A DNA stretch of 64,000 bases from Jiella endophytica (GTDB lineage: Bacteria; Pseudomonadota; Alphaproteobacteria; Rhizobiales; Rhizobiaceae): assembly GCF_004519335.1 (NCBI RefSeq), contig NZ_SOZD01000003.1:186001-250000 (forward strand). The letters run 5' to 3'. The notes under the pieces are model-generated. The model saw only the letters and a list, made by a program, of their open reading frames with translations, was not told the DNA's origin and ran no database searches. Positions within the stretch are counted from its first letter, which is position 1. Every line of letters begins with the position of its first letter. Positions 25,329-31,618 of the stretch are shown one piece after another. The translations under genes were made by a program, and so were the position numbers.

Positions 25329-26312
25329 ATGGGTTCCTATGCTTCGATCTACAACCGGATCCAGGTTCGCGGACCGTTCGATCCCGGGGTGCCGCTGAGG
25401 CACTCCTCGGACACCCGCATCCAGGCCAAGAGCTTCTCCTACTGGCTCGGCAAGATCGGCGATCCGCAGCTCGGGCCGCTCTATCTCGGCTGGTCCGGGG
25501 CCGCCTCGCTGGCCTTCGGCTTCATCGCCATCGAGATCATCGGCCTCAACATGTGGGCCTCGGTCGACTGGGACCCCTACGCCTTCGTGCGCAACCTCGC
25601 CTTCCTGTCGCTCGATCCGCCGCCGGCGAAATACGGGCTGAACCCGCTGGTGCCGCTCGGCGACGGCGGCTGGTGGATCCTCGCCGGCTTCTTCCTGACC
25701 ACCTCGATCCTTCTTTGGTGGGTGAGAAGCTACACCCGCGCCAGAGCGCTCGGCATGGGCACCCACACCAGCTGGGCCTTCGCCTCGGCGATCTTCCTCT
25801 ATCTCTCGCTCGGCCTGTTCCGGCCGATCCTGATGGGATCGTGGTCGGAGGCCGTGCCCTTCGGGATCATCACCCATCTGAACTGGACGGCCTCGGTCTC
25901 GGTGCTCTACGGCAACTGGTACTACAACCCGTTCCACATGCTCTCGATCGTCTTCCTTTACGGCTCGACGATGCTCTTCGCGATGCATGGCGCGACCATC
26001 CTCGCGGTGTCGCGCTTCGGCGGCGAGCGCGAGGCCGAGGAGATCGTCGACCGCGGCACCGCGGCTGAGCGCGGCGCGCTGTTCTGGCGTTGGACGATGG
26101 GCTTCAACGCCACCTTCGAATCGATCCACCGCTGGGCCTGGTGGTTCGCGGTGCTGACCACCTTCACCGGTGCGATCGGCGTGCTCCTCACCGGCACCGT
26201 GGTCGACAACTGGTATCTGTGGGGCGTCAAGCACGGCATCGCGCCGAGCTATCCCTCCGTCTATCCGTCCTTCCCGATCCCCGACGAAGCCGCTCGGAGT
26301 GTGATCCAATGA
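25329..26312 (+). CDS. pufM: Photosynthetic reaction centre M subunit
   Basis: 327 residues, partner of L, binding the other half of the pigment set. Visible signatures: [55 protein letters not shown] and [20 protein letters not shown], with the histidines that bind the special pair and iron. It overlaps pufC by 4 bp (ATGA). Confidence 0.98.
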
Positions 26313-27982
26313 CCCGGAAACACGTCCGCTCCAGCCCGATGATCGTCGGGATCCTCGCCATCGTCCTGGTGCTACTCGGGCTGACGGTGCCGCCCTGGGT
26401 GCTGCCGCCGATCGAATCCATCGAGACCGGCCCCGCCGCGATCGAGATGGTGCAGTTCAAGGATGCCGATCGCCAGCTGCCCTACAGCCGGCGCCCGGAG
26501 CCGCTGGAAGCGGCGGACAACGAAGGCAGCCCGAAGGCCAGCGAGGTCTATCAGAACGTCCAGGTGCTCGGCGGCCTGACCGACGCCGAGTTCACCCGGC
26601 TGATGCTGGCGATCACCGAATGGGTCTCGCCCGAACAGGGCTGCGAATACTGCCACAACCTCGAATCCGACGAGGGCTTCGCCAGCGACGACCGCTACAC
26701 CAAGGTCGTCGCCCGCAAGATGCTGGAGATGGTCCGGCACATCAATTCGAAGTGGCCCGAGCACGTCGCCCCCTCGGGCGTCACCTGCTACACCTGCCAC
26801 CGCGGCCAGAACATCCCGCCCTGGACCTGGTACGAGCAGAACGAGCCCTCGAGCGACCGCTTCATGGGCAAGCGGCGGCCATGGCATCTCGAGGCCAAGA
26901 CGATCCGGCAGTTCTTCCCGGACGTTCCCTACGACAAATATCTGATGGACGAGCATGCCAGCGCCCAGATCCAGTCGAGCGATCCGCTCGTCGCGGTCGG
27001 CGGCAAGGCCGAGGTCGCCCAGGAGCAGGACGCCGAGAACCTCTATCTCTTCATGATGCAGATGGCGAACTCGATGGGCGTCAACTGCACCTACTGCCAC
27101 AACTCCCGCGCCTTCCGAGACTGGGAGCAGTCCACCCCCTACCGCTGGATCGCCTATTGGGGCATCCGCATGGCCCGGGACGTCAACACCAACTACATCG
27201 AGCCCTTGAAGACGGTGTTCCCGGACAATCGCAAGGGACCGCTCGGCGACCCCGCCAAGGCCCATTGCGGCACCTGCCATCTCGGCAACAACAAGCCGCT
27301 CGGGGGCTACAAGCTGCTCGACCACTATCTCGTCGGGCTGACCGAGGACGGCAAGGCGCCGGATCCCGGCCCGAAGCAGGCGATCCTCCTCGGCGAGGCG
27401 AAGCCGGCCGCCGTCACCGGGCCGGACCAGGATGCCGCCCAGCCGGCGCCATCCGCCGCGCCGGTCTCGAAAGAGGCGATCGGCCAGTCGGTGGCGCCCG
27501 GCGGCAAGGACGGCGGCGCCGAATACAAGTCGCAGGAGCAGCCGGCCGGCACCGGAAGCGAGGATCTCGGCGGCACCGTCCAGCCGGTCCCGCAGTCGGA
27601 GGACACCGGCCCCTCGCCGCCGCCGACCGGGGCGAACGCCCCGCAGGGCTCGGAGCCGGCCGAGATGTCGCCCGGCTCGCCGATGGAGCCGAGCGAGGGA
27701 AAGGACGCCGTCGAGGGCACCGCCAACGCCCCTTCGACCGGCCAGCCGCCGAGCAACCCGCCGGCCAGCGGCGACGCGGCGACGCCCGACAAGGCCGAGC
27801 CCGCGGACAAGGGCGCGGCCATGCCCGAGCCAAAGGGTTCGAGCGACAGCCAGCCGGCGGCCGGCGGCGATGCGGCCGGCGGCCAGGCCGCCCCGGCGTC
27901 GGGCGCAACCTCCGGCAGCGGCCCGACCTCGATCCCGGCCAACAAGGGCCCGGCGCAAGGCACCACGACCCGCTTCAACTGA
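26309..27982 (+). CDS. pufC: Reaction-centre tetraheme cytochrome c subunit PufC with a long disordered tail
   Basis: Donates electrons to the photo-oxidised special pair from the periplasmic side. The four CxxCH haem motifs are CEYCH (112-116), CYTCH (160-164), CTYCH (260-264) and CGTCH (320-324), with methionines between them as expected. An N-terminal hydrophobic segment (about 11-30) is probably an uncleaved anchor; no lipobox Cys is evident, unlike lipidated PufC of Blastochloris viridis. The core ends near residue 360, the family norm. A further about 190 residues rich in Pro, Ala, Gly, Glu and Ser follow, which I do not recognise. Start ATG 26309 overlaps the pufM stop. Confidence 0.93.
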
Positions 27983-28179: not shown

Positions 28180-28213
28180 CGGCCGGGCTCCCTTCGCCCG
28201 GCCGAGTCTTTTT
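28180..28213 (+). terminator. Rho-independent terminator of the puf operon
   Basis: CGGCCGGGC (28180-28188), loop TCCCTTC, GCCCGGCCG (28196-28204), then AGTCTTTTT. The perfect 9-bp GC stem with T-tract lies about 200 bp after pufC. Confidence 0.75.
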
Positions 28214-29824: not shown

Positions 29825-31618
29825 TCAGTCGATCGGCACCACGACGAAGCGCACGTCGCCATTCGTCGCGGTGAGCAGCAGCAGCGCGTTGCGGCGGCCC
29901 TCGTCCTTCAGCTTGGCGATCTTATCCTTCACCTCGGCAGCGCTCGAGACCGTCTCCTGGGCGACCTCGGTGATCGTCATGCCGACCTCGACGCCCTTTT
30001 CCGCCGCAGGGGAATTCGCCTTCACCGCGGTCACCACCGCGCCGGCGACGTCGTCCGGCAGGTCGAACTTCTTGCGCGCCGCATCGTCGATGTCGGACAG
30101 CGACATGCCGAGCGCCTCGACGCCCTCGCTCGACTTGTCTGCGGCATCCGGCTGCGGCTTCGGGCCGTCCTCGGTCTCGGCCATCAGCTTTTCGCCGTCC
30201 TCGAGCCGCCCGAGAGTGATCTCGACCGTCGAGGGCTTGGCAGGCGCCGAAACCTGCTCCTTGCGCAGGATGCCGATCCGAACCTTCTTGCCGACCTTGG
30301 TCTCGGCGACCATGCGCGGCAGGTCGTTGGAACCCTCGACCTTGCGGCCGTCGAAGGAGACGATGACGTCGCCGACCTTCAGCGTGCCGTTGTCGGACGG
30401 GCCGCCCGGCACGATGCCCATGACGACGGCGCCCTGATGCTGGTCGATGCCGAGGCCCTTGGCGATGTCCTCGTTGAGCGCCTGCAGCCTGATGCCGAGC
30501 CAGCCGCGGCGGGTCTCGCCATATTCGCGCAGCTGGTCGATGACGTTGACCGCGAGGTTCGACGGGATCGAGAAGCCGATGCCGATCGAGCCGCCGGTCG
30601 GCGAGATGATCGCGGTGTTGATGCCGACGACATTGCCGAACATGTCGAACAGCGGGCCGCCGGAATTGCCGCGATTGATCGCCGCATCGGTCTGGATGAA
30701 GTTGTCGTAGGGGCCGGCATTGATGTTGCGGCCCCTGGCCGAGACGATGCCGATCGACACCGAGCCGCCAAGGCCGAAGGGATTGCCGATCGCCATCACC
30801 CAGTCGCCGATCCGCAGATCCTCCGAATCGCCGAAGTTGACGAAGGGTAGCGGCTTGTCCGCATCGACCTTGAGCAATGCGAGGTCGGTCTTGGAGTCCT
30901 TGCCGAGCAGCTCGGCATCGAGCTGGTCGCCATTCGGGAAGTTCACGGTGATGGTGTCGGCGTCGCCGATGACGTGGTTGTTGGTGACGATCAGGCCGGA
31001 GGGGTCGATGACGAAGCCGGAGCCGAGCGACTGGACGCTGCGCTCGCCGGGGCCGTCCTTCTCGCGCAGGAGATCGTCGAAGAAATCCTGCAGCGGCGAG
31101 CCTTCCGGCGCCTTCAGCGGCGGAACGCCGCGGCCGGGCTGCTCCACCCCTTGCGACGTCGAGACGTTGACAACGGCATCGAGCAGCCGGTCGGCGAGAT
31201 CGGCGACGGAGGTCGGGCCGTAGCGCGTCGGCCGCGAGGCGGTGGCGGCGGGCGCCTGGGTTTTCGTCGTCGCGCCGCCCTCGGTCGGCGGCACCGGCAG
31301 CGCCGGCACCTTCTGTTCCGAGGTGGCCGGCGCGTCCGGCTGGGCCGGAGCGGCAGGCGCGGCGTTCTGGGCGTTTTCGGCAGCGCCTGGCGTCCCGGCC
31401 CCGGGGGCCTGGGCGGCAGGTGCCTGGGTGTCGGGCACCGGGATGTCGGGCTGCTGCGCGTCGGGCGCCTGAATTTCCGGCACAAGGGCCTCGGGCGCCT
31501 CTGCCTTCGGCGCCTCGCCGCCGGTCGTCTGGGCGGCGGCACCACCCAAGGGCGCGCTGCCGGCCAGAAGGGCGATCAGCAGGACGGGAAATAGGGTCTC
31601 AACGCGCTTCGCTGTCAT
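29825..31618 (-). CDS. degP: DegP/MucD-type periplasmic serine protease (Do)
   Basis: 597 residues. Signal peptide about 1-29, then an about 100-residue Pro/Ala/Gln-rich linker, an HtrA trypsin-like domain with His215 (TNNHVIGD), Asp245 (SKTDLALLKV) and Ser319 (NRGNSGGPLF), and two PDZ domains (GWLGIRLQALNEDIAKGLGI onward, and EALGMSLSDIDDAARKKFD onward). It degrades misfolded envelope proteins, and its place after hflK-hflC-DUF2065 is the common alphaproteobacterial order. Convergent with the potassium transporter gene, 67 bp apart. Confidence 0.93.
   Translation of the reverse strand: MTAKRVETLFPVLLIALLAGSAPLGGAAAQTTGGEAPKAEAPEALVPEIQAPDAQQPDIPVPDTQAPAAQAPGAGTPGAAENAQNAAPAAPAQPDAPATSEQKVPALPVPPTEGGATTKTQAPAATASRPTRYGPTSVADLADRLLDAVVNVSTSQGVEQPGRGVPPLKAPEGSPLQDFFDDLLREKDGPGERSVQSLGSGFVIDPSGLIVTNNHVIGDADTITVNFPNGDQLDAELLGKDSKTDLALLKVDADKPLPFVNFGDSEDLRIGDWVMAIGNPFGLGGSVSIGIVSARGRNINAGPYDNFIQTDAAINRGNSGGPLFDMFGNVVGINTAIISPTGGSIGIGFSIPSNLAVNVIDQLREYGETRRGWLGIRLQALNEDIAKGLGIDQHQGAVVMGIVPGGPSDNGTLKVGDVIVSFDGRKVEGSNDLPRMVAETKVGKKVRIGILRKEQVSAPAKPSTVEITLGRLEDGEKLMAETEDGPKPQPDAADKSSEGVEALGMSLSDIDDAARKKFDLPDDVAGAVVTAVKANSPAAEKGVEVGMTITEVAQETVSSAAEVKDKIAKLKDEGRRNALLLLTATNGDVRFVVVPID

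Follow-up and report, generated by a model that had tools for sequence, protein, structure and literature searches.

The window, by which we mean the whole 64,000-nucleotide stretch of Jiella endophytica DNA that was analyzed, carries pufL, pufM, and pufC in that order, as do all 10 named loci compared with it. The product of pufC has its closest named relatives in Jiella and Aurantimonas by protein comparison, and it is a genuine PufC, encoded within the photosynthesis gene cluster of a bacterium of the Jiella/Aurantimonas group. In the frame of the ATG at 26309, the list of open reading frames also gives longer versions that begin further upstream. Searches of the organism's own genome covered 5.25 Mb in 28 contigs. 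The features considered here are as follows.

26309..27982, + strand: pufC coding sequence including the stop codon (557 amino acids), 3' of pufL and pufM; the ATG and the stop codon of pufM overlap
26336..26398, + strand: hydrophobic N-terminal segment, residues 10–30, presumed uncleaved anchor (from the sequence and the lipobox survey)
26405..27328, + strand: CytoC_RC tetraheme domain, residues 33–340 (Pfam match)
26642, 26786, 27086, and 27266, + strand: CxxCH motifs of PufC (sequence)
27329..27499, + strand: proximal extension, residues 341–397, conserved, ending AIGQSVAP (dN/dS 0.21 over residues 341–410; charge-hydropathy)
27500..27979, + strand: distal tail, residues 398–557, acidic and Pro/Ala/Gly-rich (disordered by composition)
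27515..27544, + strand: island 2, residues 403–412 (cross-species alignment)
27566..27595, + strand: island 3, residues 420–429 (cross-species alignment)
27611..27682, + strand: island 4, residues 435–458, PTGxxAPxG...P...PG (alignment and conservation tests)
27716..27760, + strand: island 5, residues 470–484 (alignment and conservation tests)
27947..27979, + strand: end peptide, residues 547–557 (GPAQGTTTR[FY][DN] in nine of nine Jiella/Aurantimonas rows)
28180..28204, + strand: terminator-like hairpin with a T run, downstream of pufC (one found against a mean of 0.6 in shuffled sequences, which makes it weak evidence)
29825-31618, − strand: gene of a DegP/HtrA-like protease, in convergent orientation to the puf operon (family named by eye)

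Up to residue 340, PufC is an ordinary tetraheme reaction-center cytochrome, which is then followed by a 217-residue extension in the same frame. The CytoC_RC family (PF02276) matches residues 33–340 (E 3.9e-102, 342 bits where the cut-off is 22.4), and CxxCH motifs are located at residues 112, 160, 260, and 320. Nearly all of the 25 sequences listed as matches from solved structures are reaction-center cytochrome subunits. The Met and His residues of PufC at the Met/Met/Met/His positions, which we take to be those of the axial heme ligands, align with the best solved chain. An earlier note on this DNA had put the end of the core near residue 360 and the length of the tail at about 190 residues. 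As the Pfam match stops at 340, the core end lies nearer 340 than 360; the tail length holds, being 217 residues counted from 340 and about 190 counted from 365.

As the same note had stated, the window PufC lacks a lipobox Cys, there being no Cys at all upstream of heme 1. Of 14 aligned rows, only that of Aurantimonas sp. VKM B-3413 shows a Cys within its first 60 residues, and this does not fit the lipobox pattern. A loose form of the pattern occurs in none of the 15 rows of the tail-bearing clade described below, in 4 of 78 others, and in all 55 presumed betaproteobacterial rows; in one of the four, L135, it is probably a coincidence within a hydrophobic stretch. AlphaFold places a helix at residues 10–26 of PufC with low confidence. 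Excerpts of PMC9640540 divide purple-bacterial cytochrome subunits into two groups by the lipoprotein Cys. According to these excerpts, the subunit of Rhodopila globiformis, which has no such Cys, was seen by structure to insert its N-terminus as a membrane helix, and that of Roseobacter denitrificans was found by protein chemistry to be anchored by an uncleaved N-terminal membrane helix. The window PufC is presumably held in the same manner. The absence of a lipobox was considered as a novelty and set aside, as it is ordinary outside the presumed betaproteobacterial rows (pattern in 4 of 78) and helix anchoring appears in the excerpted text of PMC9640540.

The extension consists of two parts. 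Residues 341–397 are conserved in the 14 aligned species, with A-I-x-x-S-V-x-P at their end. By charge-hydropathy, the first 60 residues of the extension plot as folded in 11 of 14 rows and as disordered in three, and the distal part plots as disordered in 13 of 14 (the exception is one row of genus g65); the measure is coarse, since the window's own core scores −0.001 though folded. The distal tail is 57–83% Pro, Ala, Gly, Ser, and Thr, has no Trp, Cys, or His, and varies in length between rows. Counted from 20 residues beyond heme 4, PufC is 16% Pro, 17% Ala, and 15% Gly and has 12 basic and 27 acidic residues (net −15), in agreement with the earlier description of a low-complexity, charged tail. 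The net charge of the tail is negative in all 14 rows, from −5 to −46. By these composition measures, the distal tail is probably disordered. An AlphaFold2 model from ten rows had a mean pLDDT of 31.4, core included, which is too low to show either order or disorder. The product of 27301–27979 matched no Pfam family at E ≤ 1, the OmpA family (PF00691) included. A repeat expansion was also considered as the source of the tail and rejected, with two short, low-scoring arrays found.

The tail reads as coding sequence in the same frame as the core. GC3 in this frame is 0.92 in the core and 0.94 in the tail, and its maximum is unbroken to the pufC stop. Codon comparison of the nine Jiella/Aurantimonas rows (36 pairs) gave median dN/dS values of 0.18 for residues 45–340, 0.21 for residues 341–410, and 0.44 for residues 411–557, and pS exceeds pN within the tail in the cross-species alignment. 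Alignment of the tails of relatives, which the earlier note had proposed, showed motifs that hold register across 14 species. The frameshift near 27.4 kb that it had raised was looked for through these same signals, and none was found. That a misread stop or frameshift created a tail of low complexity lacking a domain match is thus ruled out for practical purposes, as 14 species share frame and motifs, pS exceeds pN, and the GC3 signal is unbroken. The tail is in frame, clade-wide, and under purifying selection, and because relatives share its short motifs, it is real and probably useful.

The islands are unevenly retained outside Jiella and Aurantimonas. In Fulvimarina, islands 2 and 4 are present along with the first half of island 5, and island 3 is missing. 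The g65 tail has island 3 and the latter half of island 5; its island 4 is partial and its island 2 weak. The end peptides of both differ from GPAQGTTTR[FY][DN]. Across nine rows, 30 columns of the distal tail are invariant. In 40 composition-preserving shuffled sets, each realigned, the mean was 1.5 and the maximum 5, a null that ignores relatedness; the longest invariant run is 9 as compared with 1 in the shuffled sets. A second comparison used columns conserved in at least four of five outgroup rows. Among the nine ingroup rows, pN is 0.171 at the 21 of 147 distal columns that are conserved in this way and 0.319 at the other 126, whereas pS is similar (0.491 and 0.524). Random draws of columns had a pN as low as 0.171 in 30 of 5000 cases. 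Constraint on the distal islands is real but modest.

The tail occurs in Jiella, Aurantimonas, Fulvimarina, and g65 (two genomes). PufC was matched in all 10 of the genus's genomes, and the tail is present in nine; in the tenth (G009, L022) the frame runs off the end of the contig. This L022 gene looks mosaic, being Jiella-like at its 5' end and nearly Fulvimarina manganoxydans after heme 2, due either to recombination or to a chimeric contig end. In the Jiella pelagia HL-NP1 chromosome (L005/L020), pufC passes from one frame to another near residue 89 with the tail intact, reflecting either a sequencing error or a broken gene.

With the window PufC as query, 29 of the 394 genomes searched within its own family gave a PufC-family match. 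In the class 18 of 385 genomes had such a match, and in the phylum 21 of 398 (one below cut-off); for families f214 and f49 the numbers were 55 of 349 and 53 of 295, respectively. These draws are samples of the genomes available, and the labels betaproteobacterial (f214) and Rhodobacteraceae-type (f49) were inferred from sequence and kinship. The survey started from 158 loci; the 148 that have four CxxCH motifs were retained, whereas 10 have fewer and were dropped (L046, L076, L078, and L194-L200). Duplicates had already been left out before this count (L013, L014, L016-L021, L028-L030, L033, L034, L064, L077, and L080), as were L022 (contig end), L079 (weak match), and the loci from the cytochrome and tail searches (L081-L105). 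Matches outside the survey were G1215 C392, G1155 C2, and two G1444 pieces in the f214 set, and G1699, G1760, G1623, G1620, G1660, and G1551 in the f49 set.

At least 100 residues follow heme 4 in 37 of the 148 four-heme rows, and the remaining 111 have 20–93 (median 38). The 15 rows of the tail-bearing clade have 187–259 and form one group on a quick LG+G4 tree of the core (SH-aLRT 100), which is consistent with a single origin of their tail. Over the whole core tree, long and short tails require at least 14 changes, and many forks of this tree are weak. Other long extensions occur in L023 (264 residues, of different sequence) and in L024, L035, and L038 (140–144). The tree has long branches at L201, L063, and L185, and its placing of L023 next to L201 may be spurious. 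L073 (G976) has 221 residues after heme 4, rich in Asp, Glu, and Ala and with a net charge of −77; the other 39 four-heme rows of its family have 27–93.

A folded module occupies the same site in other rows. Seventeen of the 55 presumed betaproteobacterial rows have an OmpA-family domain at the PufC C-terminus (L065, L109, L110, L111, L115, L118, L119, L120, L121, L123, L124, L126, L131, L165, L168, L176, and L182; PF00691 on L065, E 4.2e-12). In 16 of the 17 domains, what we take to be the GHTD-type Asp is replaced by Ser. These extensions follow the heme-4 segment, as in the window, but they consist of a folded OmpA domain on a protein with a lipobox, whereas the window tail has no OmpA match. 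The C-terminus of PufC can thus carry a periplasmic module. Similar OmpA domains were seen, in four genomes searched, on apparent membrane pyrophosphatases (L206 and L207) and on small membrane-anchored proteins (L208, L210, and L211), all named by eye.

Among proteins of known structure or anchoring, 3wmm_C (404 amino acids) and 8wdu_C (383 amino acids) have low-complexity A/P/E-rich C-termini like that of the window PufC, which phmmer partly aligned with it. They differ from it in being lipid-anchored (for Thermochromatium according to excerpts of PMC9640540) and in having a far shorter continuation, with no common islands in the printed alignments. The PufC proteins of Rhodopila globiformis and Roseobacter denitrificans resemble that of the window in being tetraheme CytoC_RC proteins encoded after pufM, with a hydrophobic N-terminus and no lipobox. 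The window protein has 217 additional residues, and the excerpted text of PMC9640540 describes no long C-terminal extension for either of these two. A hint in excerpts of PMC12654162 that a tailed gene was transferred to Citromicrobium JL354 was pursued and rejected; the match reported in the excerpted PMC3338782 (48% identity over 328 residues) equals the core length and so provides no evidence of a tail there. In open-license PubMed Central text, nothing was recognized on this PufC tail (for Fulvimarina with PufC, among the matches listed), and nothing was found on OmpA with reaction center cytochrome and Rubrivivax. Lipobox-free anchoring is already known, and the long motif-bearing tail is a variant among other C-terminal extensions of PufC.

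For the function of the tail, we tentatively favor, at somewhat less than an even chance, a helix-anchored PufC whose two-part periplasmic C-terminus is a flexible tether with docking motifs, the proximal block packing on the core or on LH1. Close to the membrane, residues 341–397 would pack against either the cytochrome or LH1, the distal tail would form a disordered, flexible acidic tether, and the islands could dock a periplasmic partner, which may be a neighboring complex, an envelope component, or an electron donor. A tail of 217 residues would span ~13 nm end to end, an order-of-magnitude value from a scaling rule that we assume to hold. The earlier note had suggested that the tail might tether soluble electron donors or link reaction centers; the conserved islands favor some binding role. 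Points against a tether are the rapid evolution of the distal tail (dN/dS 0.44), its variable length, and an end peptide that differs in Fulvimarina and g65.

Candidate partners were sought in the same genome, and none was found. A model in which the acidic tail simply attracts a basic cytochrome c2 was discarded as lacking support, since the cytochrome c2-like protein (L094) has a net charge of 0, with the end of its signal peptide guessed, and the two cytochrome domains of L090 have net charges of 0 and −3. L090 (C25:143811-144758) is anchored in the membrane and consists of two cytochrome c domains joined by an A/E-rich linker of some 100 residues. No second tail-bearing protein was found in the genome, the other matches up to E 10 having E values of 0.28 and 2.7, and the COX2 protein (L216) carries nothing like it. 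On two contigs, di-heme cytochrome matches (C11:35747-36217 and C24:278000-278470) agree exactly in score and in frame length, being either a duplicated locus or an assembly repeat.

The tail may instead be a weakly constrained, low-complexity outgrowth in GC-rich genomes, conserved for solubility or stability only and without a docking partner. Shorter A/P-rich tails are indeed common among the surveyed rows, the distal part is the least constrained, and other periplasmic proteins of the genome have A/P- or A/E-rich stretches, as in L090 and in the DegP-like neighbor, which has a long A/P-rich stretch near its N-terminus. Such an outgrowth seems rather unlikely to us, as the islands and end peptide are conserved beyond shuffled sets and, in the outgroup-based test, beyond the rest of the tail, and the proximal block is constrained nearly like the core. 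The strong conservation of residues 341–397 would suit a structural clamp or linker, by which the tail wraps LH1 or reaches a neighboring reaction center to stabilize or pack RC-LH1, and the LH1 alpha C-termini of Allochromatium tepidum contact the termini of the C-subunit. The distal 160 residues, which are variable in length and disordered by composition, are nevertheless more than a clamp needs, and we judge this reading unlikely.

Processing of the tail appears to us improbable. By this account, the tail is wholly or partly removed after export and has its role in export, heme loading, or assembly rather than in the mature complex. The window has the DegP-like gene next to the puf operon, as do 6 of the 7 named Jiella/Aurantimonas loci. 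In addition, solved chains of one relative, presumably Thermochromatium tepidum in both cases, have 404 (3wmm_C) and 311 residues (7c52_C), which would fit an A/P/E-rich C-terminus that is unseen or absent. However, few parts of the tail are as well conserved as the end peptide, and L004 has the same end peptide with no DegP gene found within ~4 kb downstream, nor was one found in Fulvimarina L007 and L011.

The docking tether that we favor for the window may be one instance of a wider pattern. The C-terminus of PufC would then be a recurrent tether site, bearing a multivalent, disordered docking tail in the clade of Jiella, Aurantimonas, and Fulvimarina, a polyacidic tail in L073, and an OmpA domain in presumed betaproteobacteria, all of them positioning RC-LH1 relative to neighboring complexes, carriers, or the envelope. 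This is a speculative and fairly doubtful generalization; if true, it would mean that reaction-center cytochromes have an organizing role beyond electron transfer. The occurrence of the PufC tail in several cultured genera provides a handle on the arrangement of reaction centers and their access to periplasmic carriers.
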